Assembly (NCBI RefSeq): GCF_027497215.1
Contig: NZ_CP114904.1
Span: forward strand, 6,106,501-6,170,500
DNA: 64,000 nt
Direction of reading: 5' to 3'
Source: Micromonospora sp. WMMD812
GTDB lineage: Bacteria > Actinomycetota > Actinomycetes > Mycobacteriales > Micromonosporaceae
Under the pieces are notes generated by a model. That model saw only the letters and a program-made list of their open reading frames with translations. It did no database searches and had not been told where the DNA came from. Shown here one piece after another: positions 8,719 to 27,429 of this stretch. Both the position numbers and the translations under genes were made by a program. The number at the start of each line of letters is the position of its first letter. The first letter of the stretch is position 1.

Positions 8719-9963
8719 TTGTCCACGAGAGACAGAGACCTGCGGGTCGGCATGGTCGGCTACGCGTTCATGGGCGCCGCGCACTCGCAGGCGTGGCGCA
8801 CCGTGAACCGGGTGTACGACCTGCCGGCGCGGGCCCGGATGTCGCTGATCTGCGGCCGGGACGCCGGGAAGGTGGCCGACGCCGCCGACCGGCTCGGCTG
8901 GGAGGCGTACACCACCGATTGGCGTGACCTGATCAGCCGGGACGACATCGACGTGGTCGACGTCTGCACGCCCGGCGACAGCCACGCCGAGATCGCGCTC
9001 GCCGCGCTGGCCGCCGGGAAGCATGTGCTGTGCGAGAAGCCGTTGGCCAACACGGTGCAGGAGGCGAGGGCGATGGCCGCCGCGGCGGCCACGGCCCAGG
9101 CCGCCGGGGTGCGGTCGATGTGCGGGTTCAACTACCGCCGGGTGCCCGCGGTCACGATGATGCGTCAGCTCATCGCCGAGGGACGGCTCGGGGTGATCCG
9201 ACACGTCCGCGCGACGTATCTGCAGGACTGGATCGTGGATCCGCAGTTCCCGCTGGTCTGGCGGCTGCAGAAGGACAGGGCGGGCTCGGGTGCGCTCGGT
9301 GACATCGGCGCGCACATCATCGACCTCACCCAGTACGTGACCGACCAGCGGATCACCGGGGTCAGCGCGGTGACCGAGACGTTCGTCCGGGAACGGCCGC
9401 TGTCGGCCGAGTCCAGCGGGCTGGCGGCCACGGCCGACGGCAACGGTGCGGGCGACGTCTCGGCCGCCGTCGACGGCCACGGCCCGGCCACCGGTCCGGT
9501 CACCGTGGACGACGCCGCGATCTTCGTGGCGCGGCTCGACGGTGGTGCGCTGGCCACGTACGAGGCGAGCCGGTTCGCCACCGGTCGCAAGAACGCCCTG
9601 CGTGTGGAGATCAACGGCTCGCTGGGCAGCCTGGTGTTCGACCTGGAACGCCTCAACGAGCTGGAGTTCTACGACGCGACGCTACCCACCGCCGAGCAGG
9701 GCTTCAGCCGCATCCTGGTGACCGAGGGCGACCACCCGTACATGTCGGCGTGGTGGCCGCCGGGCCACATCATCGGGTACGAGCACTCCTTCACCCACCA
9801 GATGCGGGACCTCATCGAGGCGATCGCCACCGGCGCCGACCCGGCGCCGTCCTTCGCCGACGCGTTGCAGGTCCAGCTGGTGCTGGACGCGGTGACCCGT
9901 TCGGCGGAGCTCGGTTCCTCGTGGACCGAGGTGGAGCCGGCGCTGACCGCGGTGGCCGTCTGA
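8719..9963 (+). CDS. Gfo/Idh/MocA family sugar oxidoreductase
   Basis: NAD(P)-dependent dehydrogenase of the glucose-fructose oxidoreductase / inositol 2-dehydrogenase family, 414 residues. The N-terminal Rossmann fold starts VGMVGYAFMGAAHSQAW. The CEKPLA motif and the GDIGAHIIDL helix with its catalytic histidine follow. A 40-residue Ala/Gly-rich insertion lies near residues 225-265, before VTVDDAAIFV. The start is TTG at 8719, set by GGGGGGAG just upstream. As the last gene of the operon it probably oxidises the sugar or cyclitol brought in by the transporter. Exact substrate and cofactor are undetermined. Confidence 0.9.
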   Translation: MSTRDRDLRVGMVGYAFMGAAHSQAWRTVNRVYDLPARARMSLICGRDAGKVADAADRLGWEAYTTDWRDLISRDDIDVVDVCTPGDSHAEIALAALAAGKHVLCEKPLANTVQEARAMAAAAATAQAAGVRSMCGFNYRRVPAVTMMRQLIAEGRLGVIRHVRATYLQDWIVDPQFPLVWRLQKDRAGSGALGDIGAHIIDLTQYVTDQRITGVSAVTETFVRERPLSAESSGLAATADGNGAGDVSAAVDGHGPATGPVTVDDAAIFVARLDGGALATYEASRFATGRKNALRVEINGSLGSLVFDLERLNELEFYDATLPTAEQGFSRILVTEGDHPYMSAWWPPGHIIGYEHSFTHQMRDLIEAIATGADPAPSFADALQVQLVLDAVTRSAELGSSWTEVEPALTAVAV

Positions 9964-10605: not shown

Positions 10606-11772
10606 ATGCGTACGGGTGTCTGGCTGGTGGGGGCGCGTGGTTCGGTCGCGACCACCAGCATCGTCGGAGGGCTCGCGCTGCGAGCCGGCCTCGCCGGGCC
10701 GACCGGCTGCGTCACCGAACTGCCCCAGCTGCGCGGCCCCGCCCTGCCGGCCTTCGCCGACCTGGTCTTCGGCGGCCACGACGTGGTCACCACCCCGCTC
10801 TGCAAGCGGGCCGAGGCGCTCGCCGCCAGCGGGGTGCTGCCCGGCCGGCTGGTCGCCGCCCTCCCCGACGAGCTCGCCGCGGTCGAGGACGAGCTGCGTC
10901 CCGCGCCGACCGGGGCGAGCCAGGCCGACCGGGCGGCCGCCACCGTCCGGGACCTCACCGACTTCCGCGAGCGACACCGGCTCGACCGGGTGGTCGTGGT
11001 CAACGTCTCGGCCACCGAGCCCGCCGCCCGACCGCACCCCGGGCACGCCGATCCGGCCGCCCTGCGCGATGCCCTGGCCGGCCCGGACGAGGTGCTGCCG
11101 GCCAGTTCGCTCTACGCGTTCGCGGCGCTGACGGCCGGCTGCCCGTACGTCGACTTCACCCCGTCCACCGGGGCCCGGCTGCCGGCGCTGCACACGCTCG
11201 CGGTCGAGCGCGGGCTGCCTTACGCCGGGCACGACGGCAAGACCGGGGAGACCCTGGTGAAGTCGGTGCTCGCCCCGATGTTCGCGATGCGGCACCTGAC
11301 CGTGCGCTCCTGGTCCGGGGTCAACCTGCTCGGCGGCGGCGACGGCGCCAACCTGGCCGATCCGGCCGCCAACGCGGCCAAGGTGGAGAGCAAGCAGCGC
11401 GTGCTCGGCGAGACGCTCGGCTACGTGCCGCAGGGCGACACCCGGATCGACTTCGTCGAGGAGCTGGGCGACTTCAAGACCGCCTGGGACCTCATCACGT
11501 TCTCCGGCTTCCTCGGCACCGGGATGCGGATGGAGTTCACCTGGCACGGTTGCGACTCGGCGCTCGCCGCGCCGCTGGTGCTCGACCTGGCCCGGCTCAC
11601 GGCCGCCGCGCACGCCGCCGGCCGGGTCGGCCCGCTGGCCGAGCTGGCGTTCTTCTTCAAGGACCCGCTCGGCGCGCCCACCCACTCGCTCGCCGAGCAG
11701 TGGACCCGGCTGACGGAGTTCACCCGCCAGCTGCACGCCGGGCGGGAGAGCGCCGATGGCCACGCTGGCTGA
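10606..11772 (+). CDS. Inositol-3-phosphate synthase-like cyclase
   Basis: A 388-residue homologue of myo-inositol-1-phosphate synthase, which converts glucose 6-phosphate to inositol phosphate through an NAD-dependent oxidation, aldol closure and reduction. Visible signatures: the N-terminal NAD loop GARGSVATT, SGVNLLGGGDGANLADP, the KVESKQRVL lysine region and RIDFVEELGDFKTAWD. Start at ATG 10606, after GGGGAAGGGG. It is the first gene of the operon and overlaps the prenyltransferase gene by 17 bases. In cyanobacterial Ebo clusters this place belongs to EboD, a dehydroquinate-synthase-like cyclase. Both are NAD-dependent sugar-phosphate cyclases, so the protein may supply a cyclitol phosphate. 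The true substrate is unproven. Confidence 0.85.
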   Translation: MRTGVWLVGARGSVATTSIVGGLALRAGLAGPTGCVTELPQLRGPALPAFADLVFGGHDVVTTPLCKRAEALAASGVLPGRLVAALPDELAAVEDELRPAPTGASQADRAAATVRDLTDFRERHRLDRVVVVNVSATEPAARPHPGHADPAALRDALAGPDEVLPASSLYAFAALTAGCPYVDFTPSTGARLPALHTLAVERGLPYAGHDGKTGETLVKSVLAPMFAMRHLTVRSWSGVNLLGGGDGANLADPAANAAKVESKQRVLGETLGYVPQGDTRIDFVEELGDFKTAWDLITFSGFLGTGMRMEFTWHGCDSALAAPLVLDLARLTAAAHAAGRVGPLAELAFFFKDPLGAPTHSLAEQWTRLTEFTRQLHAGRESADGHAG

Positions 11773-12772
11773 CCTGGCCGAGCTGGTCCGGGCGCCGGCG
11801 GCGCTCTCGGTGCCCGGTGACGTGGTCGCCGGGGCCGCCGCGGCCGGGGCGCTCGACCGGCGTACGCCCGCCCTGGCCGGCGCCTCGGTGCTGCTCTACT
11901 GGGCCGGCATGGCCGCCAACGACTGGGCCGACCGGCGCCTGGACGCCGTCGAGCGGCCGGAGCGGCCGATCCCCAGCGGCCGGGTCCAGCCCGCCGCCGC
12001 GGTCGGTCTCGCCGCCGGCCTCACCGCCGCCGGGCTCGGGCTGGCCGCCGCCGCGGGCGGCCGGCGGGCGGCGGCGGTCGCGGTGCCGCTGGCCGCGGCC
12101 GTCTGGGGCTACGACCTGAGGGCGAAGAACACCGCCGCCGGCCCGGCCGTGATGGCCGCCTGCCGAGGGCTGGACGTGCTGCTCGGCGCCACCGGCGGGC
12201 GGCTGGCCCGCGCCCTGCCGGCGGCGTTGACCGTGGCCGCGCACACCTGGACGGTCACCGCGCTCTCCCGTCGGGAGGTCAGCGGCACCGACGCCACGCT
12301 GCCGCTGGGCACCCTCGCCGGCACCGCGCTGGTCGCCGCGAGCGCCGCCGCCGTACCCCGCCGGCACCCGCGTCGGGCGATTCCGCACCGGGGCCCGGAC
12401 GATGCCGGCGCCCACCCCGCCCAGGACCGTGCCGCGGCCCGTCGGGATCCGGGCCGCGGCACGCCACGGCGGATCTCCGCCTGGGACGCCGGCGCGGCGG
12501 CCCCGTCCCGGTCCCGCCGCGGAGCCCTCGCCGCCGCGCTGCCCGCGGCGCTGGCCGCCTGGTACGCGGCCGGCTACGGCGCCGCGCAGGCCCGGGTGGT
12601 CGCCGAGCCGACCGCGGGCCGGGTGCGGGCCGCGGTCGGCGCCGGGATCACCGGGTTGCCCGCTCTGCAGGGCGCGCTGACCGCGCGCGGCGGCGCCGGG
12701 CTGCTGGGGCTCGCGGTCGCCGCGGCGGCGCCGCTGGGTCGCCGGCTCGCCCGGAAGGTGTCGCCGACATGA
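11756..12772 (+). CDS. EboC-like UbiA family prenyltransferase
   Basis: A 338-residue membrane protein related to UbiA prenyltransferases and to the actinobacterial SCO3242 group. The first Asp-rich motif is intact (NDWADRRLDAVERPERP, near residue 50). The second is modified to YDLRAKNT. About eight hydrophobic helices are visible, interrupted near residues 200-250 by a polar, Arg/Pro-rich linker that contains a perfect DNA inverted repeat. UbiA enzymes move a prenyl chain from its diphosphate to a small acceptor in the membrane. The polyprenyl synthase at the operon end could supply the donor. Named by its operon context; acceptor unknown. Confidence 0.82.
   Translation: MATLADLAELVRAPAALSVPGDVVAGAAAAGALDRRTPALAGASVLLYWAGMAANDWADRRLDAVERPERPIPSGRVQPAAAVGLAAGLTAAGLGLAAAAGGRRAAAVAVPLAAAVWGYDLRAKNTAAGPAVMAACRGLDVLLGATGGRLARALPAALTVAAHTWTVTALSRREVSGTDATLPLGTLAGTALVAASAAAVPRRHPRRAIPHRGPDDAGAHPAQDRAAARRDPGRGTPRRISAWDAGAAAPSRSRRGALAAALPAALAAWYAAGYGAAQARVVAEPTAGRVRAAVGAGITGLPALQGALTARGGAGLLGLAVAAAAPLGRRLARKVSPT
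12429..12462. repeat. Perfect inverted repeat inside the eboC-like gene
   Basis: Arms GTGCCGCGGCCCG (12429-12441) and its exact complement (12450-12462), loop eight bases. It lies in the part of the gene encoding a polar Arg/Pro-rich linker between membrane helices. It looks like an inserted hairpin or a structural attenuator rather than conserved coding sequence. Confidence 0.7.
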
Positions 12773-13671
12773 CCGCGCCCCGCCTCGGCTACGGCACCAA
12801 CGGGTTCGCCAACCACCGGCTGGACGACGCGCTCGCCGTGCTCGCCGACCTCGGCTACGTCGGGGTGGCGCTCACCCTGGACCACGACCACCTCGATCCG
12901 TTCGCGCCGGCCCTGGTGCGGCGGGTGTCCGCCGTCCGCCGCCGGCTGGAGGCCCTCGGCCTCGCGGTGGTCGTCGAGACGGGCGCCCGTTACCTGCTCG
13001 ACCCGTGGCACAAGCACGCGCCGACCCTGCTGCACGACGACCCCACCCGGCGGATCGAGTTCCTGCGCCGGGCCGTGCGGATCGGCGCCGACCTGGGTGC
13101 GGAGGCCGTGTCGTTCTGGGCCGGCGTACGCCCCGAGGCCGTCCCGCCGCGGACCGCCTGGGACCGGCTGGTCGCCGGGTGCGCCACGGTGGTCGACGCG
13201 GCCGACCGGGTCGGCGTGCCGCTGGGCTTCGAGCCGGAGCCAGGCATGCTGGTCGAGGACATCGCCGGCTGGCGCCGGTTGCGTACCGGGCTCGACGACC
13301 CGGGCTGCTTCGGCATCACCCTCGACATCGGACACTGTCGCTGCCTGGAGCCGTGGTCCGCGCCCCGGTGCGTGCACGAGGTGGCGGAGCACCTGGTCAA
13401 CGTCCAGATCGACGACATGCGCCGGGGTGTGCACGAACACCTCGAGTTCGGCGAAGGCGAGATCGACTTCCCGCCCGTGCTGCGCGCGCTGGACGACGCC
13501 GGCTACCGCGGCCTGGTCGCCGTGGAGTTGCCCCGGCACTCGCACGCCGCGCCCGCCGTGGCGGCCCGGTCGCTGGACTTCCTGCGCGCCGCGGCGGCGG
13601 CCGTCGCACCGCCCCTCAGCTCCGCACCCGTCGACGCGTCACCGGCCGGAGAGGCCGCGGTGCGTATGTAG
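12769..13671 (+). CDS. Xylose-isomerase-like TIM barrel protein
   Basis: A 300-residue member of the AP-endonuclease-2 / sugar phosphate isomerase family, overlapping the previous gene by four bases (ATGA). The barrel shows the usual metal-site clusters: FEPEPG, LDIGHC, QIDDMRRGVHEHLEFGEG and a C-terminal VELPRHSH. Members epimerise or isomerise sugars and cyclitols with a divalent metal. In this operon it may act on the product of the inositol-phosphate-synthase-like enzyme. It is a second, shorter relative of EboE (15334-16524) in the same operon. Confidence 0.85.
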   Translation: MTAPRLGYGTNGFANHRLDDALAVLADLGYVGVALTLDHDHLDPFAPALVRRVSAVRRRLEALGLAVVVETGARYLLDPWHKHAPTLLHDDPTRRIEFLRRAVRIGADLGAEAVSFWAGVRPEAVPPRTAWDRLVAGCATVVDAADRVGVPLGFEPEPGMLVEDIAGWRRLRTGLDDPGCFGITLDIGHCRCLEPWSAPRCVHEVAEHLVNVQIDDMRRGVHEHLEFGEGEIDFPPVLRALDDAGYRGLVAVELPRHSHAAPAVAARSLDFLRAAAAAVAPPLSSAPVDASPAGEAAVRM

Positions 13672-13802
13672 GTGCGGAGCAGGGGGTCCGGGACGTCCCG
13701 CGCCGCCGCCGTGGCACCGGCGCAGCGGCGGGCCGGGCAGACCCGGCGGCCATGCGAGATCGTGCCGGCTCCGGTCCGGAGCCGGCGCCGAGGGGAGGCA
13801 CC

Positions 13803-14474
13803 ATGACACCGGATCAGCTCCGGGCGGCCCTGCGGGGCGTACCCGATCCCGACTGGCTGGACACGGCGCTGCGCGCGGTGGCGACGGAACCGGCGACCAT
13901 CACCCGGTTCTTCCCGGCCGCCGGCCGGCGCTGCGGCCGCCACGACCTGCCCGCCCTGCCCGGTTGGACCGCCGACGAGGCCGCCCGCGCGCTGCTGCTC
14001 ACCGCGCTGCCGACCGACCACGCCCGGTACGCCGACGTCCTGTACCAACAGGGCGACGCGGCGGAGCGGCGGGCGGTGCTCAAGGCGCTGCCGCTGCTGC
14101 CGGTCGGCACGGCCGGGGTGCCCCTGCTGCACGACGCCATCCGCACCAACGACACCCGGCTGGTCGCCGCGGCCCTCGGCCCGTACGCCCGGCACCTCGA
14201 CCCGGCCGCCTGGCGGCAGGCGGTGCTGAAGTGCGTGTTCATGGCGGTGCCGCTGGCCGGGGTCGCCGACGTCGACGCCCGTGCCGACGGCGAGCTGGCC
14301 GTCATGCTGGCCGGCCTGGCCGCCGAACGACAGGCCGCCGGCCGCACCATGCCCGACGACGCCATCGACCTGCTCGACCGGCTCACCGCCGGCCGGGCGA
14401 CCATCGCCGGTCCCGCCGGCGGATCCGACCGCGCCGACGCGCGATCCGACCGGCTCAGCGCACAGGAGGCGTGA
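13803..14474 (+). CDS. EboA domain protein
   Basis: A 223-residue soluble, helix-rich protein resembling EboA, the first-named but biochemically uncharacterised member of the Ebo cluster. Diagnostic-looking segments are DHARYADVLYQQGDAAERRAVLKALPLL and IRTNDTRLVAAALGPYA followed by LDPAAWRQAVLKCVFMAVPL, suggestive of HEAT-like helical repeats. The start at ATG 13803 follows GAGGGGAGG. A 131-base gap separates it from the isomerase gene, the only sizeable gap in the operon. Its stop overlaps the EboB start by one base. Recognition rests on these segments plus the flanking TatD, EboE and phosphodiesterase genes. Confidence 0.82.
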   Translation: MTPDQLRAALRGVPDPDWLDTALRAVATEPATITRFFPAAGRRCGRHDLPALPGWTADEAARALLLTALPTDHARYADVLYQQGDAAERRAVLKALPLLPVGTAGVPLLHDAIRTNDTRLVAAALGPYARHLDPAAWRQAVLKCVFMAVPLAGVADVDARADGELAVMLAGLAAERQAAGRTMPDDAIDLLDRLTAGRATIAGPAGGSDRADARSDRLSAQEA

Positions 14475-15334
14475 TGCGCATCTTCGACCCGCACATCCAC
14501 ATGACCTCGCGGACGACCGACGACTACGAGCGGATGGCGGCGGCCGGCGTCCGCGCGATCGTGGAGCCGGCGTTCTGGCTGGGGCAGCCGCGCACCAGCG
14601 CCGCCTCGTTCACCGACTACTTCGACTCGCTCATCGGCTGGGAGCCGTTCCGCGCCGGGCAGTTCGGCGTCCGGCACCACGCGACGATCGCGCTGAACCC
14701 GAAGGAGGCCAACGACCCGCGCTGCCGGAAGGTGCTCGACCTGCTGCCCCGCTACCTCGACAAGGACGGTGTGGTGGCGGTCGGAGAGATCGGCTACGAC
14801 TCGATGACGCCGGAGGAGGACGAGGCCTTCGCCGCCCAGCTCGCCCTGGCCGTGGCGCACGATCTGCCGGCGCTGGTGCACACCCCGCACCGGGACAAGG
14901 CCCGCGGTGTGGAGCGCAGCCTCGCGGTGGTCCGCGAGGCCGGCATCGAACCCGGCCGGGTGGTGGTCGACCACCTCAACGAGGTGACCGTGAAGCTGGT
15001 CCGGGACACCGGCTGCTGGCTCGGCTTCTCGATCTACCCGGACACCAAGATGTCGCCGCCGCGGATGGTCGAGCTGCTGCGGGCGTACGGGACCGAGCGG
15101 ATGCTGGTCAACTCGGCGGCTGACTGGGGCCGGTCGGACCCGCTGCTCACCCGGGCCACCGCGGAGGCGATGCTGCTGGCCGGGTTCAACGACGACGACG
15201 TCGACCGGGTGCTCTGGCGCAACCCGGTGGAGTTCTACGGCCAGTCCGGCCGGCTCGACCTCAGCGACCTCGCCGACGCCGCCCCGCCGGCCGGCACCTT
15301 CGCCGGCAACTCGATCCTGCGCGGAGGCAGCTGA
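14474..15334 (+). CDS. EboB-like TatD family hydrolase
   Basis: A 286-residue metal-dependent hydrolase of the TatD amidohydrolase group. It starts MRIFDPHIHMTSRTTDDYERM, with the HxH metal pair (HIH) at residues 7-9. It then shows VAVGEIGYD (metal-bridging Glu), ALVHTPHRDK (His) and VDHLNE (His), and ends with a VNSAADWGRSDPLL segment carrying the last Asp. TatD proteins are nucleases or phosphoester/amide hydrolases; the Ebo member has no known substrate. One-base overlaps with both neighbours indicate translational coupling. Confidence 0.87.
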   Translation: MRIFDPHIHMTSRTTDDYERMAAAGVRAIVEPAFWLGQPRTSAASFTDYFDSLIGWEPFRAGQFGVRHHATIALNPKEANDPRCRKVLDLLPRYLDKDGVVAVGEIGYDSMTPEEDEAFAAQLALAVAHDLPALVHTPHRDKARGVERSLAVVREAGIEPGRVVVDHLNEVTVKLVRDTGCWLGFSIYPDTKMSPPRMVELLRAYGTERMLVNSAADWGRSDPLLTRATAEAMLLAGFNDDDVDRVLWRNPVEFYGQSGRLDLSDLADAAPPAGTFAGNSILRGGS

Positions 15335-16524
15335 TGCGGCTGCGACATCCGGGAGGCGAGACCGTCCATCTCGGCTACTGCACCAACGTGCACCCGGCCG
15401 AGGACCTCGCCGGCATCCTCGCCCAACTGGACACGTACGCGGTCCCCGTCCGGGAGGCGATCGGGGCCGACCTGCTCGGCCTGGGGCTGTGGTTGGCCGC
15501 CCCGGTCGCCGCGGAGCTGGCCGGCGACCCGGCAACGCGCCTCGGCCTGCGGTCGGAACTGGACGCCCGGGGGTTGGAGGTGGTCACCCTCAACGGCTTC
15601 CCCTACGCGGCCTTCCAGGCCCCGGTGGTCAAGGGTGACGTGTATCACCCCGACTGGACCACCCCGGACCGGCTGGCGTACACCCTCGACCTGGCCCGCG
15701 TGCTTGCCGACCTGCTGCCCGACGACGCGGCCCGCGGCTCGATCTCCACCCTGCCGCTGGCCTGGCGGTCGCCCTGGGACGGCGCCCGTGCCGAGGCGTG
15801 CCGACGCCGGCTCGACCAACTCTCGGCCGGTCTCGCCGCGGTGGAGCGGGACACCGGCCGGCGGATCCGGGTCGGCTTCGAGCCGGAACCCGGATGCCTG
15901 GTGGAGAGCACGAAACAATCCGCCGCGATACTGTCCGGCGTGGACAATGATCGACTCGGCGTCTGTGTGGACCTCGCGCACCTCGCCTGCGCCTGGGAGG
16001 ACCCGGCGGAGGCCCTCGCGCGGCTGCACGCGGCCGGCCTGCCGGTGGTGAAGGTGCAGGTCTCGGCCGCGCTGGAGGCGGCCGACCCGGCCGCCTCCGC
16101 CGAGGCGCTGCGACGCTGGGTCGAGCCCCGGTTCCTGCACCAGACCCGGGGCGCCGGCTGCGCGGGCACCACCGACCCGGCCGACCCGGCGTACGCGGCC
16201 GACGACCTGGACGCCGCCCTCGACGCGGCGCTGCCCGGGCCGTGGCGGGTGCACTACCACGTGCCGCTGCACGCCCCGCCCGAGCCGCCGCTGGACTCGA
16301 CGTTGCCGGTGCTGCGCGCCGCGCTGGCCGCGCTCTACGCCGGCCCGGACGCCGGCTGCGACCACCTGGACGTAGAGACGTACACCTGGGGGGTGCTCCC
16401 GGAGGCGCGCCGGCCGCGCACCGACGCGGAGCTGGCCGCCGGGATCGCGGCGGAGCTGGCCTTCGCCCGCCACGAGCTGGCCGCGCTCGGCCTCACGCCA
16501 CTGGGAAGCGAGGTGCCGGCATGA
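15334..16524 (+). CDS. EboE-like TIM barrel protein
   Basis: A 396-residue xylose-isomerase-like barrel of the metabolite-traffic EboE group, larger than ordinary sugar isomerases. Characteristic segments are HLGYCTNVHPAEDL at the start, TLNGFPYAAFQAPVVKGDVY near residue 90, FEPEPGCLVEST and GVCVDLAHLACAWEDP. In cyanobacteria the Ebo cluster is needed for moving the scytonemin precursor to the periplasm, but the reaction of EboE is unknown. It follows EboB with a one-base overlap and overlaps the phosphodiesterase gene by four bases. Confidence 0.88.
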   Translation: MRLRHPGGETVHLGYCTNVHPAEDLAGILAQLDTYAVPVREAIGADLLGLGLWLAAPVAAELAGDPATRLGLRSELDARGLEVVTLNGFPYAAFQAPVVKGDVYHPDWTTPDRLAYTLDLARVLADLLPDDAARGSISTLPLAWRSPWDGARAEACRRRLDQLSAGLAAVERDTGRRIRVGFEPEPGCLVESTKQSAAILSGVDNDRLGVCVDLAHLACAWEDPAEALARLHAAGLPVVKVQVSAALEAADPAASAEALRRWVEPRFLHQTRGAGCAGTTDPADPAYAADDLDAALDAALPGPWRVHYHVPLHAPPEPPLDSTLPVLRAALAALYAGPDAGCDHLDVETYTWGVLPEARRPRTDAELAAGIAAELAFARHELAALGLTPLGSEVPA

Positions 16525-18008
16525 GCAAGCGGTTGGTGGTGCTGGACGTGGTCGGGCTGACTCCGCGGCTGCTGGCGCACATGCCACGGCTGCGCGCGGT
16601 CGCCGACACCGGCTTCCGGGCGGAGTTGGGCACGGTGCTGCCCGCGGTGACCTGTTCGGTGCAGTCGACGTTCCTGACCGGGGAGTTGCCGGCCGGCCAC
16701 GGGATCGTCGGCAACGGCTGGTACTTCCGGGACCTCGGCGAGGTGCTGCTCTGGCGGCAGCACAACGCGCTGGTCGGCGGGGAGAAGCTGTGGCAGGCGG
16801 CACGCCGGGCCGAGCCCGGCTACACGGTGGCCAACGTCTGCTGGTGGTACGCGATGGGCGCGGACGTCGACTGGACGGTCACGCCGCGCCCGGTCTACTA
16901 CGCGGACGGGCGCAAGGAACCCGACTGCTACACCGATCCGCCGGAGCTGCACGACGCGCTCACCGGGCGGCTGGGCACCTTCCCGCTCTTCACCTACTGG
17001 GGGCCGACCGCCGGGCTGCCGTCCTCGGCCTGGATCTGCAAGGCCGCCGAGCAGATCCTCGCCGACCACTCGCCCGACCTTACCCTGGTCTACGTCCCCC
17101 ACCTCGACTACGACCTGCAACGGTACGGTTCGTCCTCGCCGCAGGCCGCCGCCGCGGCGGCCGCGCTCGACAAGGTGCTCGGCCCGCTGCTGGACGCGGC
17201 CCGGGCCCGGGAGGCGACCGTGGTGGCGCTGTCGGAGTACGGCATCACCGACGTCTCCCGGCCGGTCGACGTCAACCGCCTGCTGCGCGCCGAGGGTCTG
17301 CTGCGGGTGCACACCCAGGCCGGGATGGAGTACCTCGACCCGTGGACCTCGCGGGCCTTCGCCGTGGCCGACCACCAGGTGGCGCACGTCTACGTGCGGG
17401 ACCCGGCGGACGTACCGGCGGTGGCGAAGCTCTGCGCCGGCCTGCCCGGCGTGGCCGAGGTGCTGGACGCCGACGGCAAGGCCGCGCACGGGCTGGACCA
17501 TCCGCGCGCCGGCGAACTGGTGCTGGTGGCCGAGCCGGACGCCTGGTTCACCTACTACTACTGGCTCGACGACGGCCGGGCGCCGGACTTCGCCCGCCTG
17601 GTCGAGATCCACCGCAAGCCCGGGTACGACCCGGCCGAACTCTTCTTCGACCCGGCCGCCCCGCTCGCGGCGAAGCGCCGCGCCGCGACGGCCCTGGCCC
17701 GCAAGAAGCTCGGCCTGCGATATCTGATGAGCGCGGTCGGGCTGGACGCCGGCGCGCGGGCGGTACGCGGCTCGCACGGCCGACTGCCGGCCGACCCGGC
17801 GGACGCCCCGGTGCTGCTCTGCTCGGACCCGGCCGCGGCCCGCGACCGCATCGCCGCGACCGAGGTCAAGGCGCTCCTGCTGGAACTGGCCGGGCTGGCG
17901 TCGGCCGGCGCGTCGCCCGGTCCGGCGTCGTCCGGTGCGTCGGCCGGTCCGGCGTCGTCCGGCGCGACGACCGGCCCGGTGGCGTCCGGTGCGGGGGAGG
18001 CGTCGTGA
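16521..18008 (+). CDS. EboF-like alkaline-phosphatase-superfamily phosphodiesterase
   Basis: A 495-residue type I phosphodiesterase / nucleotide pyrophosphatase-like enzyme. Alkaline-phosphatase-fold markers are present: VVLDVVGLTPRLL with the first metal Asp, the threonine nucleophile region AVTCSVQSTFLTG, YVPHLDYDLQRYG with Asp/His ligands, ALSEYGITDV and VADHQVAHVYV. No signal peptide, so probably cytoplasmic. It corresponds to EboF. The last 35 residues are a low-complexity tail with three copies of a nine-residue unit (GPASSGASA type). It overlaps its neighbours by four bases on both sides. Confidence 0.87.
   Translation: MSKRLVVLDVVGLTPRLLAHMPRLRAVADTGFRAELGTVLPAVTCSVQSTFLTGELPAGHGIVGNGWYFRDLGEVLLWRQHNALVGGEKLWQAARRAEPGYTVANVCWWYAMGADVDWTVTPRPVYYADGRKEPDCYTDPPELHDALTGRLGTFPLFTYWGPTAGLPSSAWICKAAEQILADHSPDLTLVYVPHLDYDLQRYGSSSPQAAAAAAALDKVLGPLLDAARAREATVVALSEYGITDVSRPVDVNRLLRAEGLLRVHTQAGMEYLDPWTSRAFAVADHQVAHVYVRDPADVPAVAKLCAGLPGVAEVLDADGKAAHGLDHPRAGELVLVAEPDAWFTYYYWLDDGRAPDFARLVEIHRKPGYDPAELFFDPAAPLAAKRRAATALARKKLGLRYLMSAVGLDAGARAVRGSHGRLPADPADAPVLLCSDPAAARDRIAATEVKALLLELAGLASAGASPGPASSGASAGPASSGATTGPVASGAGEAS
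17919..17999 (+). repeat. Three tandem 27-base units in the eboF-like 3' end
   Basis: Copies start at 17919, 17946 and 17973 and encode GPASSGASA, GPASSGATT and GPVASGAGE. The first two are nearly identical in DNA, so this looks like recent slippage-driven growth of a flexible C-terminal tail. Confidence 0.75.
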
Positions 18009-19072
18009 CGGTCACCGTGGCGCCCACCGACGCGAGCGGGCTGCGGGCCCGCTTCGACGCCGAGCTGGCCGCGTTCCTCGACCGGCAGGGGCCGGAGTGG
18101 CCGGACGGCGCGCCGCGCGGGGTCTTCACCGCGTTGCAGCGGTTCGTGCTGGCCGGTGGCAAGCGACTGCGGCCGCTGTTCTGCTACTGGGGCTGGCGGG
18201 GTGCCGGTGGTGACGACGGCTCCCCGATCGTGGTGGCCGCGGCCGCGCTCGAGCTGTTCCACGCGTTCGCCCTGATCCACGACGACATCCTCGACGGCAG
18301 CGACCGCCGCCGGGGCGAGCCGTCCGTGCACCGCCTCTTCGCCGACCTGCACGCCCGCTCGTCCTGGCGGGGCGATCCCGAGGCGTACGGCCGCAACACG
18401 GCGCTGCTCTGCGGTGACCTCTGCGCCGCCTGGTCGGACCAGATGTTCCACGAGTGCGGGCTCACCACCGAGCAGGTGCACCGGGGGTACGCGATGTTCG
18501 CCCTGATGCGCACCGAGGTGATCGCCGGGGAGTACCTGGACCTGGTCTCCGGCGTCGGGGATGGTTCGGTGGCCAGCGCGTTGACCGTAATCCGGATGAA
18601 GGCGGCCCGCTACACCGTCACCCGGCCGCTGCAGATCGGCGCGGCGCTGGCCGGCGGGTCGCCGGAGCTGATCGAGACGCTGGCGGAGTTCGGCGACCCG
18701 CTCGGCGACGCGTTCCAGCTGCGCGACGACGTGCTCGGTGTCTTCGGCGACCCGGCGGTCACCGGGAAGTCGGTCCTGGACGACCTGCGGGAGGGCAAGC
18801 CCACGGTGATGATGGCGCTGGCCCGCAGCTCCGCCGACCGGACGCAGACCGCCCGGCTGCGGGAGCTCTTCGGCAACCCCGACCTGGACGCCGACGGCGC
18901 CGCCGAGTTGCGCGCGATCATCGAGGGCACCGGCGCGCGGGAGCGGATCGAGCAGATGATCCGGGTCCGGACCGAGGGGGCGTTGGCCGCGCTGGAGAGC
19001 GCGCCGGTGGACGACGCGACCCGTGCGGCGCTGGTCGGTCTCGCCGGGCAGGCGATCGACCGGCGCTCCTGA
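18005..19072 (+). CDS. Polyprenyl (isoprenyl) diphosphate synthase
   Basis: A 355-residue all-helical prenyltransferase that elongates allylic diphosphates with isopentenyl diphosphate. Both Asp-rich motifs are intact: DDILDGSDRRRGEP (near residue 95) and FQLRDDVLGVFGD (near residue 240), and GGKRLRPLF precedes the first. GTG start at 18005 overlaps the EboF stop. The residues before DDILD are FALIH. I cannot deduce the exact chain length, though a geranylgeranyl-type product is plausible. As the final gene of the operon it would feed the EboC prenyltransferase. This enzyme is not one of the six named Ebo proteins. Confidence 0.9.
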   Translation: MTVTVAPTDASGLRARFDAELAAFLDRQGPEWPDGAPRGVFTALQRFVLAGGKRLRPLFCYWGWRGAGGDDGSPIVVAAAALELFHAFALIHDDILDGSDRRRGEPSVHRLFADLHARSSWRGDPEAYGRNTALLCGDLCAAWSDQMFHECGLTTEQVHRGYAMFALMRTEVIAGEYLDLVSGVGDGSVASALTVIRMKAARYTVTRPLQIGAALAGGSPELIETLAEFGDPLGDAFQLRDDVLGVFGDPAVTGKSVLDDLREGKPTVMMALARSSADRTQTARLRELFGNPDLDADGAAELRAIIEGTGARERIEQMIRVRTEGALAALESAPVDDATRAALVGLAGQAIDRRS

Positions 19073-19373: not shown

Positions 19374-22247
19374 ATGTCCACAGTGGACAAATTCCACCAC
19401 CGCCCCCGACGATGGTTCACCGCCGGCTCGGCGCTGCTGCTCGTCGCGGCGGCCGGCACGGTCTCGCTCGGCGCCGGCCCGGCCGCGCTCGGCGGCCCCA
19501 CCCCGGCCCAGGCGCACCCGATCAACGCCACCGACTTCCAGCAGGTCGAACTCGCCCGCGGCGTCGCCGAGATGGGCGAGCCTATGTCGCTGGCCGTGCT
19601 GCCCGACCGTTCGGTGCTGCACACCGCGCGCAACGGCACCCTCCGCCGCACCGACGCGAACGGCACCACCTCGGTGATCGGAACACTCCCGGTCTACACC
19701 CACGACGAGGAGGGCCTGCAGGGCGTCGGGGTGGACCCGAACTTCGCCACCAACCGGCACGTCTTCCTCTACTACGCCCCGCCGCTGTCCACCCCCGCCG
19801 GGGACGCGCCGGCCACCGGCAGCGACTTCTCCGCCTGGCGGGGCGTCAACCGGCTGTCCCGGTTCACCCTCAACGCCGACTTCACCCTCAACCAGGCCAG
19901 CAAGGTCGACGTGCTGGACGTGCCCGCCGACCGGGGCCTCTGCTGCCACGTCGGCGGTGACATCGACTTCGACGCCGCGGGCAACCTCTACCTCTCCACC
20001 GGCGACGACACCAACCCGTTCGACTCCGCGGGCTACGCGCCGATCGACGAGCGGACCAACCGCAACCCCGGCTACGACGCGCAGCGCAGCGCCGGCAACA
20101 CCAACGACCTGCGTGGCAAGATCCTCCGGATCAAGGTCAACGCGAACGGGACGTACTCCGTCCCGGCCGGCAACCTCTTCGCCGCCGGCACGGCCGGGAC
20201 CCGGCCGGAGATCTACGCGATGGGCTTCCGCAACCCGTTCCGGATGAGCGTGGACAAGGCCACCGGCATCGTCTACGTCGGTGACTACGGGCCGGACGCC
20301 GGCTCCACCAGCGCCACCCGTGGGCCATCCGGCCAGGTCGAGTTCAACCGGGTCACCGGGCCCGGCAACTACGGCTGGCCGTACTGCACCGGGACGAACA
20401 CCAGCTCCGAGACGTACAACGAGTGGAACTTCGCCACCAACGCCACCGGCCCGAAGTTCAACTGCACCGGCGGGCCGACGAACAACTCGTTCCGCAACAC
20501 CGGCCTGTCCACCCTGCCGGCCGCGAAGGCGTCCTGGATCCGGTACGGCGGCGACGCCGGCACCCCGCCCGCGTTCGGTGGCGGCTCCGAGTCCCCGATG
20601 GGCGGCCCGGTGTACCGGTACAACGCCTCCTCGCCGTCGACGGTGAAGTTCCCGCAGTCCTTCGACGGGTTGTTCTTCGCCACCGAGTTCGGCCGGGGCT
20701 GGATCAAGCCGATCCACGTCAACGCCGACGGCTCGCCGGGCACCATCGACAGCTTCCCCTGGACGGGCAAGCAGGTGATGGACTCGGCCTTCGGCCCGGA
20801 CGGGGCGTACTACGTGCTCGATTACGGCACCGGATACTTCAACGGCGACGCCAACTCGGCGCTTTACCGGTTCGAGTACATCGGCGGGGGCAACCGCGCG
20901 CCGACGGCCGTGGCCAGCGCCAACCGGACCTCGGGCGCCGCGCCGCTGAGCGTGACGTTCTCCTCGGCCGGCTCGTCCGACCCGGAGGGCGGGGCCCTGA
21001 CGTACGCCTGGACCTTCGGCGACGGCACCAGCTCCACGGCGGCCAACCCGACGAAGACCTACACCACCAACGGGAACTACACCGCCACGCTGACCGTCCG
21101 CGACCCGCAGGGCGCCACCGGCAGCGCCAACGTGTTGATCAGCGTGGGCAACACCGCGCCCACGGTGACGATCAACGCGCCCGGCAACGGCAAGCTGTTC
21201 TCCTTCGGCGACACGGTGCCGTTCAACATCACGGTGACCGATCCCGAGGACGGCGCGATCGACTGCGGCAAGGTCAAGATGACCTACGTGCTCGGGCACG
21301 ACCAGCACGGCCACCAGATCACCTCGCAGACCGGCTGCTCCGGCTCGATCACCATCCCGGTCGACGGCGAGCACGACTACGCGGCGAACATCTTCGCCAT
21401 CTTCGACGCCGAGTACACCGACGCCGGCGGGCTCACCACGCACACCCAGCACACCCTCCAGCCCCGCCACCGGCAGGCCGAGCATTTCAAGACCTCGTCG
21501 GGCATCAACACGTTCGACAAGGCGGCCGCCGAGGGCGGCAAGACCGTCGGCGACATCAACAACGGGGACTGGATCGCCTTCCAGCCGTACCAGGTCGGCA
21601 ACGTCACGTCGTTCACCGCCCGGGTCTCCTCGGCCGGCGCCGGCGGCACGCTCCAACTGCGGGCCGGCTCCGCCACCGGCGCCGTGATCGGGTCGGCCAC
21701 CGTTCCGGTCACCGGTGGCTGGGACACGTTCACGACGGTGACCGGGACGGTCACCAGTCCGCCCGCCGGCACGACGACGCTCTACCTGACCTTCGCCGGG
21801 TCGGGCACCGGGGCGCTCTACGACGTGGACACGTTCACCCTGAACACCGGCACCTCCAGCGGCGGCGCCGGCCCGATCCGGGGTCTGGCCAACAAGTGCC
21901 TGGACGTCCGCAACGGCGGCACCGCCGACGGTACGCAGATCCAGCTCTACACCTGCAACGGCAGTGCCTCGCAGAGTTGGACCGTGACGCCGAACTCGAC
22001 GATCCGGGCGTTGGGCAAGTGCCTGGACGTCTCCGGCGGCGGCTCGGCGGACGGCACGAAGATCCAGCTGTGGACGTGCAACGGCACGGGTGCGCAGAAC
22101 TGGTCGGCGCAGGCCGACGGCACGATCCGCAACCCGCAGTCCGGCAAGTGCCTGGACGTGTCCGGCAACAACTCGGCCGACAGCACGCCGGTGCACCTGT
22201 GGACGTGCGTCGCCAACGCGGCCAACCAGAAGTGGACCCTGCCCTGA
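19374..22247 (+). CDS. Secreted PQQ-type sugar dehydrogenase with PKD, CBM6 and ricin-B domains
   Basis: A 957-residue extracellular multidomain protein. The signal peptide (residues 1-48) has a basic start and ends near AQAHP. Residues about 55-505 are a six-bladed-propeller glucose/sorbosone dehydrogenase domain, with EGLQGVGVDPNF, YLSTGDDTNPF, LRGKILRI and EIYAMGFRNPFRM. A PKD domain follows (508-590, YAWTFGDGT), then a beta-sandwich with HDQHGH, a CBM6-like carbohydrate-binding module (700-820) and a ricin-type beta-trefoil (830-957) with three QxW-type repeats. The start follows AGGAAGGGA. It probably oxidises an oligosaccharide or polysaccharide end outside the cell while the lectin modules hold the substrate. 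Cofactor dependence on PQQ is presumed from the family. Confidence 0.9.
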   Translation: MSTVDKFHHRPRRWFTAGSALLLVAAAGTVSLGAGPAALGGPTPAQAHPINATDFQQVELARGVAEMGEPMSLAVLPDRSVLHTARNGTLRRTDANGTTSVIGTLPVYTHDEEGLQGVGVDPNFATNRHVFLYYAPPLSTPAGDAPATGSDFSAWRGVNRLSRFTLNADFTLNQASKVDVLDVPADRGLCCHVGGDIDFDAAGNLYLSTGDDTNPFDSAGYAPIDERTNRNPGYDAQRSAGNTNDLRGKILRIKVNANGTYSVPAGNLFAAGTAGTRPEIYAMGFRNPFRMSVDKATGIVYVGDYGPDAGSTSATRGPSGQVEFNRVTGPGNYGWPYCTGTNTSSETYNEWNFATNATGPKFNCTGGPTNNSFRNTGLSTLPAAKASWIRYGGDAGTPPAFGGGSESPMGGPVYRYNASSPSTVKFPQSFDGLFFATEFGRGWIKPIHVNADGSPGTIDSFPWTGKQVMDSAFGPDGAYYVLDYGTGYFNGDANSALYRFEYIGGGNRAPTAVASANRTSGAAPLSVTFSSAGSSDPEGGALTYAWTFGDGTSSTAANPTKTYTTNGNYTATLTVRDPQGATGSANVLISVGNTAPTVTINAPGNGKLFSFGDTVPFNITVTDPEDGAIDCGKVKMTYVLGHDQHGHQITSQTGCSGSITIPVDGEHDYAANIFAIFDAEYTDAGGLTTHTQHTLQPRHRQAEHFKTSSGINTFDKAAAEGGKTVGDINNGDWIAFQPYQVGNVTSFTARVSSAGAGGTLQLRAGSATGAVIGSATVPVTGGWDTFTTVTGTVTSPPAGTTTLYLTFAGSGTGALYDVDTFTLNTGTSSGGAGPIRGLANKCLDVRNGGTADGTQIQLYTCNGSASQSWTVTPNSTIRALGKCLDVSGGGSADGTKIQLWTCNGTGAQNWSAQADGTIRNPQSGKCLDVSGNNSADSTPVHLWTCVANAANQKWTLP
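21880..22247 (+). repeat. Ricin-B module repeat, copy 1
   Basis: The last 370 bases of this gene are closely matched by the end of the next gene (24072-24439). Long identical runs occur around ACGCCGAACTCGACGATCC and AACGCGGCCAACCAGAAGTG, including synonymous positions, so the duplication is recent or maintained by gene conversion. Confidence 0.8.
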
Positions 22248-22324: not shown

Positions 22325-24439
22325 ATGCGCAGACTCCTGCGACCCGTCCTCGGCGCGGCCACCGCCGTCCTCGCCGTCATCGCCTGCACGACCCCGGCCG
22401 CCCCGGCCAGCGCCGCCGACGCCCCGTACGACGTGCTGGTCTTCTCCAAGACCGCCGGCTTCCGGCACGACTCGATCGCGGTCGGCACGCAGGCCATCCG
22501 CGACCTCGGCGCGGCGAACAGCTTCACGGTCACCGCGACCGAGGACGCCGCCGCGTTCACCACGGGCAACCTCGCCCAGTACGAGGCCGTCGTCTTCCTC
22601 AACACCACCGGCGACGTGCTCAACGCCAGCCAGCAGACCGCGTTCGAGTCGTACATCGGCGCGGGCGGCGGCTACGTCGGCGTGCACGCCGCCGCGGACA
22701 CCGAGTACGGCTGGTCCTTCTACGGCAACCTGGTCGGCGCGTACTTCGCCTCGCACCCGGCAATCCAGCAGGCCAACATCAAGGTGGAGAACCGGGCGCA
22801 CGCGGCGAGCGGCCACCTGCCGCAGACCTGGACCCGCACCGACGAGTGGTACAACTACCAGACCAACCCCCGTTCCACCGCCCGGGTGCTGGCCACCCTC
22901 GACGAGTCGTCCTACTCGGGCGGCGGGATGGGCGCCGACCACCCGCACTCCTGGTGCAAGACCTACAACGGCGGCCGGGCCTTCTACACCGGTGGCGGGC
23001 ACACGCAGGCCTCGTACGCCGAGCCGGCCTTCCGGGCCCACCTGCTCGGTGGCATCCGGTACGCGGCCGGCCGGACCAAGGCCGACTGCCGCCCCGAGAC
23101 CGGCTACACCACCCTCTACAACGGCTCCACCAGCGGCTGGTCGCAGGCCGGGCCGGGCAGCTTCACCAACGCCGACGCCACCCTCACCTCCGTCGGCGGG
23201 ATGGGCCTGTACTGGTACAGCGCGAAGCAGTTCACCAACTACTCGCTCAAGCTGGACTGGCGGCTCGCCGGCGACGACAACTCCGGCGTCTTCATCGGCT
23301 TCCCGCCGTCGAGCGACCCCTGGTCGGCGGTGAACAACGGCTACGAGATCCAGATCGATCCCACCGACGCGGTCGACCGGACCACGGGCGCGGTCTACAC
23401 CTTCAAGTCGGCCGACATCGCCGCCCGGGACGCCGCGTTGAACCCGGCCGGGGAGTGGAACACCTACGAGCTGCTGGTCGAGGGTGAGCGGCTCCAGGTC
23501 TTCCTGAACGGGGTGAAGATCAACGACTTCACCAACACCGACCCGGTCCGCTCGCTCGCCGGGCACATCGGAATCCAGAACCACGGCACCGGCGACGACG
23601 CGTCGTTCCGCAACATCCGGATCAAGGAACTCGGCACCACCCCGCCGCCGACCGGGAACGTCACCGTCCAGGCCGAGGCGTTCAGCTCGGCCAACGGGAT
23701 CAGCGCGGTCGGCAAGACCGGAGCCAACGGCGGGCAGACGATCGGCTACATCGACCCGGGCGACTGGGCGGCGTACAACGGCCTCAACCTGACCGGGACG
23801 ACGTCGTTCCGGGCGCGGGTCGTGTCCGGCGGGCCGGGCGGCACCCTGCAGGTGCGCACCGGCTCGGCCACCGGCCCCGTCCTCGGCTGGGTGGCGGTGC
23901 CCAACACCGGCGGCTGGAACACCTTCGCCGACGTCACCACCACCCTCTCCGGCGTCCCGTCCGGAGCCCAGAACCTCTACCTGACCTTCGCCGGGTCGGG
24001 CGGTGGGCTCTTCGACGTGGACGACTTCACCCTGGTGAAGGGGAGTGGCGGCACCGGCACCGGCCCGGTCCGGGGCCTGGGCGGCAAGTGCCTGGACGTC
24101 CGCAACAGCGGCACGGCCGACGGTACGCAGATCCAGATCTACACCTGCAACGGCAGTACGGCGCAGACCTGGACGGTGACGCCGAACTCGACGATCCGGG
24201 CGTTGGGCAAATGCCTCGACATCTCGGGTGGCGGTTCGGCGGACGGCACGAAGATCCAGTTGTGGACGTGCAACGGCACCGGTGCCCAGAACTGGTCGGC
24301 GCAGACCGACGGAATCCTGCGGAACCCGCAGTCGGGCAAGTGCCTGGACGTCTCGGGCAACAACTCGGCCGACGGCACGGTGGTGCACCTCTGGACGTGC
24401 ATCGCCAACGCGGCCAACCAGAAGTGGACGCTGCCCTGA
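22325..24439 (+). CDS. Secreted ThuA / DUF1080 / CBM6 / ricin-B protein
   Basis: A 704-residue secreted protein beginning with a signal peptide (residues 1-31, ending SAADAP). Residues 35-255 are a ThuA-like glutamine-amidotransferase-fold domain (VLVFSKTAGFRHDSI, GGYVGVHAAADTEYGW). Residues 258-437 are a DUF1080 domain (LYNGSTSGW, NSGVFIGFP, NGYEIQIDP, HIGIQNHG), a family now linked to 3-keto-glycoside hydrolysis. Then come a CBM6-like module (446-570) and a ricin-B trefoil (578-704) nearly copied from the preceding protein. The gene starts 77 bases after that gene with GGAGAAG. Together they suggest oxidation of a surface sugar followed by processing of the keto product; that link is inferred. 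Confidence 0.88.
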   Translation: MRRLLRPVLGAATAVLAVIACTTPAAPASAADAPYDVLVFSKTAGFRHDSIAVGTQAIRDLGAANSFTVTATEDAAAFTTGNLAQYEAVVFLNTTGDVLNASQQTAFESYIGAGGGYVGVHAAADTEYGWSFYGNLVGAYFASHPAIQQANIKVENRAHAASGHLPQTWTRTDEWYNYQTNPRSTARVLATLDESSYSGGGMGADHPHSWCKTYNGGRAFYTGGGHTQASYAEPAFRAHLLGGIRYAAGRTKADCRPETGYTTLYNGSTSGWSQAGPGSFTNADATLTSVGGMGLYWYSAKQFTNYSLKLDWRLAGDDNSGVFIGFPPSSDPWSAVNNGYEIQIDPTDAVDRTTGAVYTFKSADIAARDAALNPAGEWNTYELLVEGERLQVFLNGVKINDFTNTDPVRSLAGHIGIQNHGTGDDASFRNIRIKELGTTPPPTGNVTVQAEAFSSANGISAVGKTGANGGQTIGYIDPGDWAAYNGLNLTGTTSFRARVVSGGPGGTLQVRTGSATGPVLGWVAVPNTGGWNTFADVTTTLSGVPSGAQNLYLTFAGSGGGLFDVDDFTLVKGSGGTGTGPVRGLGGKCLDVRNSGTADGTQIQIYTCNGSTAQTWTVTPNSTIRALGKCLDISGGGSADGTKIQLWTCNGTGAQNWSAQTDGILRNPQSGKCLDVSGNNSADGTVVHLWTCIANAANQKWTLP
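24072..24439 (+). repeat. Ricin-B module repeat, copy 2
   Basis: Second copy of the ricin-B coding segment found at 21880-22247. The two differ at scattered, mostly synonymous sites and share the same stop context. Confidence 0.8.
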
Positions 24440-26421: not shown

Positions 26422-27429
26422 ATGGCGCGACCCATCACGCTCTTCACCGGCCAGTGGGCCGACCTTCCGTTCGACGAGGTCTGTCGGCTCGCCTCCGAGT
26501 GGGGCTACGACGGTCTGGAGATCGCCTGCTGGGGCGACCACTTCGAGGTCGACAAGGCGCTGGCCGACGACTCGTACGTCGACCGCAAGCGGGAAACCCT
26601 GGCCAAGCACAACCTGAAGGTCTACACGATCTCCAACCACCTGGTCGGGCAGGCCGTCTGCGACCACCCCATCGACGAGCGGCACCAGGACATCCTGCCC
26701 GCGCGGATCTGGGGCGACGGCGAGCCGGAGGGCGTACGCCGGCGGGCCGCCGAGGAGATCAAGGACACCGCCCGGGCGGCCGCGAAGCTCGGCGTGAAGA
26801 CCGTCGTCGGCTTCACCGGCTCGTCGATCTGGCACACCCTGGCGATGTTCCCGCCGGTGCCGCCGTCGATGATCGAGCGCGGCTACCAGGACTTCGCCGA
26901 CCGGTGGAATCCGATCCTCGACGTCTTCGACGAGGTCGGGGTGCGCTTCGCGCACGAGGTGCACCCGAGCGAGATCGCATACGACTACTGGACCACCAAG
27001 CGGACGCTGGAGGCGATCGACCACCGGCCCGCGTTCGGGCTGAACTGGGACCCGTCGCACTTCGTCTGGCAGGAGCTGGACCCGGTCAACTTCATCTTCG
27101 ACTTCGCCGACCGGATCTACCACGTGGACTGCAAGGACGCCAAGGTGCGCACCGGTGACGGCCGGCGCGGCCGGCTCTCCTCGCACCTGCCCTGGGCGGA
27201 CCTGCGCCGCGGCTGGGACTTCGTCTCCACCGGCCACGGCGACGTGCCGTGGGAGGACTGCTTCCGGGCGTTGAACGCGATCGGCTACGACGGGCCGATC
27301 TCGATCGAGTGGGAGGACGCCGGGATGGACCGGCTGGTCGGCGCTCCGGAGGCCCTCCAGTTCGTCCGCCGGCTCGCCTTCGACGCCCCGACCGCCGCCT
27401 TCGACGCGGCGTTCAGCAGCAAGGACTGA
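26422..27429 (+). CDS. Sugar phosphate isomerase/epimerase (TIM barrel)
   Basis: A 335-residue xylose-isomerase-like barrel starting at ATG 26422 after GGGAGAGAAGG. Metal-site segments are readable: [45 protein letters not shown] and the terminal [13 protein letters not shown]. The [10 protein letters not shown] ending is shared with isomerases that accompany Gfo/Idh dehydrogenases and act on oxidised or keto sugars. It lies between the secreted ThuA/DUF1080 gene and a ROK repressor gene, which fits that role. The IS now separates it from the upstream genes. Confidence 0.9.

Follow-up and report, generated by a model that had tools for sequence, protein, structure and literature searches.

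Introduction

The ebo operon (eboA-F) is known from eustigmatophyte plastids, Bacteroidota, cyanobacteria and the EDB cluster of Pseudomonas, and in Nostoc it is reportedly required for a metabolite to reach the periplasm (PMC6282210). An isoprenoid-cyclitol product was proposed for Ebo in 2016 (PMC5133447), in a paper which also refers to the farnesylated, EEVS-derived cyclitol BE-40644, and the idea of a lipid carrier was published in 2018 (PMC6282210). In Streptomyces coelicolor, the transferase SCO3242 and the myo-inositol phosphate synthase SCO3243 are listed with the CDA antibiotic cluster (PMC3610822). Here, we analysed an eight-gene operon within a stretch of 64,000 nucleotides from Micromonospora sp. 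WMMD812 (contig NZ_CP114904.1, positions 6,106,501 to 6,170,500; this whole stretch is referred to as the window), which an earlier note had described as an Ebo-type operon extended by a cyclase and a polyprenyl synthase. Our comparison indicates that the cyclase, an archaeal-type inositol-phosphate synthase (MIPS), takes the place of EboD, and suggests that the operon is an Ebo variant directed towards a prenylated cyclitol of the membrane.

Results

The eight genes all lie on the plus strand and occupy positions 10606-19072, in a genome that consists of a single contig of 7.13 Mb; coordinates and overlaps were read from the sequence and its open reading frames, and both agree with the earlier description. 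The first gene (10606..11772) encodes the MIPS-type cyclase, in which both Pfam domains are present (PF07994, 165 bits; PF01658, 103 bits). It is followed by the genes for a UbiA-superfamily prenyltransferase of the SCO3242/EboC group (11756..12772; PF01040, 64 bits), a second TIM-barrel isomerase or epimerase, referred to as ISO (12769..13671; PF01261, 127 bits), the all-helical EboA (13803..14474), the TatD-like hydrolase EboB (14474..15334; PF01026, 49 bits, over cut-off), the TIM-barrel epimerase-like EboE (15334..16524; NF035939, 412 bits at a cut-off of 250; PF01261, 42 bits), EboF of the type I phosphodiesterase/nucleotide pyrophosphatase family (16521..18008; PF01663, 215 bits, over cut-off) and a polyprenyl, probably short-chain, diphosphate synthase (PPS, 18005..19072; PF00348, 159 bits). 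Six of the seven junctions overlap, by 17 and 4 bases before ISO and by 1, 1, 4 and 4 bases after EboA; the sole non-overlapping one, between ISO and EboA, has a gap of 131 bases if EboA starts at the ATG at 13803. The Pfam scan found a family for all operon proteins except EboA, which is recognised by the NCBIfam domain model NF035938 (156 bits, cut-off 50), the narrower EboA_family model scoring 78 bits and thus under its cut-off of 320. The gene identities given earlier are therefore upheld, for EboA and EboE by NCBIfam cut-offs and for EboB, EboF, MIPS, UbiA, the isomerase and PPS by Pfam. The assignment of EboF is based on PF01663, as there was no match to an EboF model.

EboE exceeds its cut-off in 79 of 121 genomes of the family and in 13 of 296 genomes of the phylum, the window genome being counted in both, and its nearest named relatives among the matches listed are mostly from Micromonospora (84-91% identical). 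As the same arrangement recurs in many genera, it is not due to chance. For a comparison of gene content, three samples of EboE loci were compiled. The best-match sample derives from the best 80 of 585 relatives, all actinobacterial, from which 16 loci with short context were dropped (64 loci remaining); the Micromonosporaceae sample comprises 68 loci hand-picked from a longer family list, less four that were dropped (64 loci); and the phylum sample, which excludes the window, its same-genus match and a weak hit in G279, comprises 12 loci from 11 genomes, less one (11 loci). The samples overlap, L136, L141, L124 and L155 being the same places as L049, L045, L055 and L046. Genes were labelled by the best phmmer match per open frame; fused frames mask one partner, and the counts for EboA are thus too low. 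Evidence from outside the actinobacteria was drawn from plasmids only, and matches to EboE, EboD and MIPS were paired by accession and position, EboD being counted within a distance of 10 kb. The EboD search covered the best 60 of 115 records, with all EboD-grade matches (at least 298 bits) at the top, and with the window EboE as query 48 instead of 47 EboE-bearing records were obtained, the additional one being a 22% fragment.

The operon in the window holds no EboD, and the gene that comes closest to EboD elsewhere in the genome, at 2.24 Mb (105 bits, 30% identical), is taken to be AroB. Among the 47 EboE-bearing plasmid records, EboD was found nearby in 15 and MIPS in 29, while three had neither and none had both. 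The six annotated non-actinobacterial plasmid clusters (Azospirillum, Roseivivax, Deinococcus, Mycetohabitans, Aureibacter and Salipiger) all possess an EboD annotated as 3-dehydroquinate synthase; neither MIPS nor ISO was found in them, and EboA was matched in five of the six. In contrast, MIPS is present in 51/64, 61/64 and 10/11 of the full-context actinobacterial loci of the best-match, Micromonosporaceae and phylum samples, respectively, and ISO in 62/64, 62/64 and 11/11, with no match to EboD in any locus of these three samples. Three Streptomyces plasmid clusters likewise combine MIPS, a SCO3242 enzyme and ISO, and in a different phylum Gemmatirosa (Gemmatimonadota) has MIPS and ISO with ebo genes in another order. 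In actinobacteria, EboE is thus accompanied by MIPS in nearly all loci; since no EboD match occurs in the loci of these samples, the cyclase is replaced rather than added, in contrast to the earlier view of an operon extended by a cyclase.

Some of the plasmid loci have further features. The EboD-bearing loci L027, L028 and L122 carry a ferritin-like protein (PF12902, seen for L027) and a large partner of no assigned family. On a Streptomyces plasmid (L115), EboE is the only annotated ebo gene in a type II polyketide cluster, and plasmids of Roseomonas and Hymenobacter (L120, L121) hold another type of MIPS cluster, with Gfo/Idh/MocA, YcaO, sugar isomerase and PIG-L deacetylase genes.

The best solved relative of the window MIPS is the archaeal Ino1 1u1i (234 bits). 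Four lysine residues, which we take to be catalytic, are conserved at positions 212, 263, 291 and 352, within the motifs GKTGETLVK, ESKQRVL, DFKTAWD and FFFKDP; two PDB chains have alanine at two of these four positions. An ordinary INO1 of mycothiol formation was rejected, as the protein scores 28.6 bits with TIGR03450 (cut-off 638) and a separate, INO1-like PF01658 gene resides at 4.71 Mb of the genome. In a quick tree, in which the genome's own INO1 forms a very long branch, the 33 actinobacterial Ebo MIPS sequences constitute one clade (support 99) apart from those of Gemmatirosa and the haloarchaea and from non-Ebo MIPS. A non-Ebo MIPS of Halomarina groups with the Ebo-like ones of haloarchaea, and hence the MIPS sequence alone is no marker of the Ebo type in this group.

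Relatives of the operon were identified on three haloarchaeal plasmids (Halocatena, Natronococcus and Halobaculum), each with genes for a TatD protein, ISO-like isomerases, a UbiA enzyme, MIPS and an EboF-like protein. The window EboB matches the TatD protein of the Halocatena cluster with 266 bits, and the Halocatena UbiA enzyme scores 178 bits with the EboC and 165 bits with the SCO3242 model, which is under both cut-offs. Four haloarchaeal MIPS contexts were compared, a fifth record (Halomarina sp. PSR21) being left out; the fourth (L118) is unrelated.

The second isomerase had been listed earlier but had played no part in the interpretation. Its nearest solved sequence is the 3-epimerase UlaE (44 bits), and it has an EPEPG stretch in common with EboE. 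In 17 loci, a single open frame runs from stop to stop through both ISO and EboA, which fits the hybrid EboA proteins reported for actinobacteria (PMC5133447), although a shared frame alone is no proof of a fused protein. For EboA, an AlphaFold model with 13 helices was obtained (mean pLDDT 94.2), to which no fold relative was found in the PDB at E<=0.001. EboE is predicted to be a confident TIM barrel (pLDDT 92.7) with UlaE-type 3-epimerase and xylose isomerase as the nearest folds; its profile gave no match among the PDB sequences.

The prenyltransferase exceeds the cut-off of the SCO3242 model (NF045897, 370 bits, cut-off 260) and stays below that of EboC (NF035940, 117 bits, cut-off 250), and it is thus to be seen as a related type and not as a strict EboC. 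In an alignment of 11 EboC, haloarchaeal and actinobacterial proteins, the first motif, NDxxDxxxD, is invariant and YDxxxK is nearly so; the residues N55, D56, D59, D63 and Y119 are invariant, D120 and K124 nearly so. In comparison with 9 of its 10 aligned relatives, the protein carries about 50 extra residues, an insert encoded at window 12340-12530.

The prenyl diphosphate synthase does not belong to the Ebo set in general. It is present in 22/64 loci of the best-match sample, all 22 from Micromonosporaceae, in 46/64 of the Micromonosporaceae sample and in 2/11 of the phylum sample, where the two genes lie upstream of MIPS or on the opposite strand and score lower (133 and 198 bits). PPS is therefore mainly an addition of the Micromonosporaceae; of the two extra enzymes whose co-occurrence across actinobacteria had been put forward as a check, the cyclase is widespread and the synthase is not. 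The genome has four PF00348 matches in all, PPS being one of them. Among the NCBIfam models, PPS scores best with that of a short-chain FPP/GPP synthase, at 318 bits and below the cut-off of 600, which makes a short chain more probable than a long polyprenyl carrier.

The operon is flanked by genes for the oxidation of sugars, which the earlier note did not mention. Upstream, following ABC importer genes, a Gfo/Idh/MocA dehydrogenase is encoded (8752..9963, +), which is nearest to levoglucosan dehydrogenase (NF052479, 351 bits, equivalog cut-off 650). Downstream follow a GSDH-type sugar dehydrogenase with PKD, CBM6 and ricin lectin domains (19374..22247, +) and a protein combining ThuA and 3-keto-disaccharide hydrolase domains (22325..24439, +; PF06283, PF06439), both with an N-terminus that resembles a signal peptide by eye, and a TIM-barrel protein similar to 2-hydroxy-3-keto-glucal hydratase (26422..27429, +; 2zds, 598 bits; 8ro4, 152 bits). 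The open reading frame of the latter, as listed, starts at 26050, with homology from about 26422. An ISL3-family transposase gene (24670-25932, minus strand) lies between the ThuA and the hydratase-like gene, and an inverted repeat, GCAGGGTC/GACCCTGC, is located at 10367-10394 between the MocA and MIPS genes. A sequence resembling this repeat is present in about 10 of the aligned upstream regions shown, and it is possibly a transcription boundary.

At least two of the four module families (MocA, GSDH, ThuA and hydratase-like proteins) adjoin ebo in 37/64, 42/64 and 3/11 loci of the three samples. By genus label in the 80 named loci from which the best-match sample derives, this applies to 15 of 23 genera, and the hydratase-like gene is found by ebo in 11 of the 23, the arrangements varying widely. 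About 10 GSDH and about 5 ThuA genes are present in the genome; the hydratase-like TIM barrel is without a close paralogue (next match, 20.8 bits). We take the link between ebo and the sugar module as real because in a genome of 7 Mb the chance that a gene present once lies within 10-15 kb is below 1%, a figure that is an estimate and not a computed control. In Gemmatirosa, MocA-like genes and a hydratase-like TIM barrel adjoin the ebo genes; the Halocatena set adjoins an ABC importer and ThuA, the Natronococcus set an ABC importer and a GSDH-type dehydrogenase, and the Halobaculum set has neither an importer nor GSDH or ThuA beside it. With the same queries, none of the four families was matched in the six EboD-type loci, of which the Azospirillum cluster adjoins a sugar ABC importer. 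Some other ebo clusters adjoin non-ribosomal peptide synthetase (NRPS) or polyketide genes.

Two further candidate partners were rejected: YceI, which occurs in one locus only, and a general link of ScyD/ScyE to ebo, given that among the matches listed no over-cut-off ScyE-family match lies near EboE in 48 ebo-bearing actinobacterial genomes; in 19 of the 48, such a match is on another contig or at least 70 kb away. In Streptomyces camelliae, a ScyD/ScyE protein is encoded directly upstream of a MIPS-type ebo operon (L029:4221-5423; 243 bits, cut-off 80).

Discussion

The protein families, the exchange of the cyclase, the conserved motifs of MIPS and the prenyltransferase and the ISO/EboA frame shared in other loci are firm at the level of sequence. 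We consider it somewhat better than an even chance, at a probability of roughly 0.55, that the window holds a MIPS-type Ebo operon, i.e. a variant of the Ebo pathway which makes a short-chain prenylated cyclitol of the membrane, whose chemistry and role we infer. The use of two unrelated cyclases in one slot speaks for a cyclitol ring in the product. In the proposed scheme, glucose 6-phosphate would be cyclised to a cyclitol phosphate, and MIPS together with ISO, a TIM-barrel epimerase of the metal-dependent type, would supply the ring precursor that is supplied by EboD in the classical operon. ISO, EboE and EboB might remodel the ring, EboF might remove or exchange the phosphate, and the UbiA enzyme might attach a short (C15-C20) prenyl chain, which in most Micromonosporaceae would be provided by the operon's own synthase, with EboA presumably holding the enzymes together. 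Such a prenylated cyclitol would reside in the cytoplasmic membrane and aid the movement or processing of other metabolites, here in the setting of a 3-keto-sugar utilisation module and elsewhere in that of antibiotic or pigment clusters; since other clusters adjoin NRPS or polyketide genes, a general helper is favoured. The reading in the earlier note is partly right, and its prenylated cyclitol and lipid carrier are largely in print already (PMC5133447, PMC6282210). New in our analysis are the exchange of the cyclase, the additional isomerase as a regular partner, the relatives in archaea and the surrounding genes for sugar oxidation. No mention of the MIPS/EboD exchange, the haloarchaeal set or the 3-keto link was found in a limited literature search, outside of which lay figures and most subscription journals, and this search therefore lends weak support to novelty.

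Several points weigh against the proposed reading. MIPS retains the phosphate on its product. EboD-type cyclases are said to release phosphate (PMC5133447), and one EboF shared by both types is thus not neatly explained; a C7 ring and a C6 ring may, moreover, not lead to one product, and no Ebo product is identified in the literature found. The exchange of the cyclase runs along phylum lines, and many of the plasmid records are near-identical, especially those of Streptomyces. Being lineage-bound, inflated by near-duplicates and taken from overlapping samples, the counts do not represent independent events; more independent are the sets of Gemmatirosa and the haloarchaea. In the haloarchaeal sets, in turn, EboA is not among the annotated genes, and with the EboE model the two isomerases of Halocatena reach just 21 and 27 bits. 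Finally, as detailed below, some clusters are devoid of MIPS.

It is conceivable, though unlikely, that the product is aromatic or quinone-type, with the cyclitol being dehydrated to a phenol by the TIM barrels and prenylated thereafter, to serve oxidases and dehydrogenases outside the cytoplasm as a redox cofactor in the membrane. The acceptors of UbiA enzymes are mostly aromatic. In membrane fractions, EboC homologues attach farnesyl groups to quinoline acids, i.e. aromatic acceptors (PMC9235831), a finding that also counts against a cyclitol and qualifies the earlier statement that no Ebo reaction is known; that paper includes Saccharomonospora clusters, and the word inositol does not occur in its main text. 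The farnesylated BE-40644 (PMC5133447) likewise fits an aromatic product. ISO and the flanking TIM barrel match the inosose dehydratase IolE weakly, with 24 and 42 bits, but these scores are far under the cut-off of 290. GSDH-type genes adjoin ebo in 32/64, 41/64 and 4/11 loci and in Natronococcus, a gene for a PQQ-dependent dehydrogenase lies next to the EboD-type cluster in Salipiger, and PqqE, the one pqq gene searched for, has no match over cut-off in the genome, all of which would agree with a redox cofactor; against it stands that none of the 48 actinobacterial genomes described above showed a ScyE-family gene close to ebo among the matches listed.

Slightly more doubtful is the possibility that MIPS is a passenger that supplies extra inositol or inositol lipids, and that the Ebo product is formed without a MIPS-derived ring. 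Actinobacteria commonly contain inositol, and 13 of the 64 best-match clusters, all from Streptomyces, are without MIPS. The window MIPS was used to search 11 of these 13 genomes (L080 and L095 were left out) and G128, and in 11 of the 12 an Ebo-type MIPS (386-404 bits) is encoded elsewhere, clearly apart from the INO1-like second match at about 25 bits; in two of the genomes the Ebo-type stretch holds one TGA. The genome of L080 also carries the MIPS-bearing cluster L103. In the draft genome of S. alanosinicus (G421), the INO1-like match is the only one, and the Micromonosporaceae loci L165, L200 and L201 are without MIPS, EboE being the sole ebo match in two of them. Passenger status is further opposed by the INO1-like gene which the window genome already has, by the single clade of the 33 Ebo MIPS sequences, by the exclusion of EboD and by the recurrence of MIPS with ebo genes in another phylum. 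Eight of the MIPS-less Streptomyces loci (L064, L066, L069, L079, L080, L081, L085 and L184) share genes for an inositol-monophosphatase family protein, a FAD oxidoreductase and a gamma-glutamyltranspeptidase.

That the Ebo enzymes serve the uptake and breakdown of an unusual sugar here, the prenyltransferase and synthase forming a side branch, would be in line with the flanking importer, MocA, GSDH, ThuA/3-keto-hydrolase and hydratase-like genes and with the frequency of this module by ebo, but we consider it improbable, as MIPS, UbiA and the prenyl synthase are biosynthetic families, the remaining loci lack the module and in part adjoin NRPS or polyketide genes, and no shared operator or evident common motif of ebo and the sugar module was seen by eye among the upstream regions shown.

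Returning to the prenylated cyclitol, it might be speculated, as a broader and rather improbable generalisation, that bacteria and archaea share Ebo as a pathway to a prenylated membrane cofactor, derived from a ring which either EboD or MIPS can make, and that this cofactor serves extracytoplasmic pigment export and oxidation or the oxidation of sugars. If so, bacteria would use either cyclase and haloarchaea MIPS, and secreted dehydrogenases would oxidise sugars in some hosts. Irrespective of this, the exchange of the cyclase makes the existing proposal of a ring sugar with a lipid tail easier to test, and tractable actinobacteria and haloarchaea of the MIPS type would offer new hosts for finding the Ebo compound. 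Judging from the 3-keto-sugar genes nearby, Ebo may have another physiological setting in addition to pigment export.

Compared to known systems, the levoglucosan/3-keto-glycoside pathway (PMC7676230) resembles the surroundings of the operon, which is flanked by levoglucosan-dehydrogenase-like and 2-hydroxy-3-keto-glucal-hydratase-like proteins; unlike in that pathway, the MocA protein remains under the equivalog cut-off and the genes are neighbours outside the operon. The window MIPS is akin to the archaeal Ino1 in its overall match and its four aligned lysines, but it resides within an Ebo operon and is distinct from the INO1-like gene of the same genome. With SCO3242/SCO3243 (PMC3610822), compared by table entries alone, the operon shares the pairing of a SCO3242-family prenyltransferase with a myo-inositol phosphate synthase, the two being numbered consecutively in S. 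coelicolor. With the classical ebo operon it has EboA, EboB, EboE, EboF, a related UbiA enzyme and the tight packing in common, and it differs in that EboD is absent, that MIPS and a second TIM barrel are present, that the prenyltransferase falls on the SCO3242 and not on the EboC side of the model cut-offs, and that the operon encodes a prenyl diphosphate synthase of its own.

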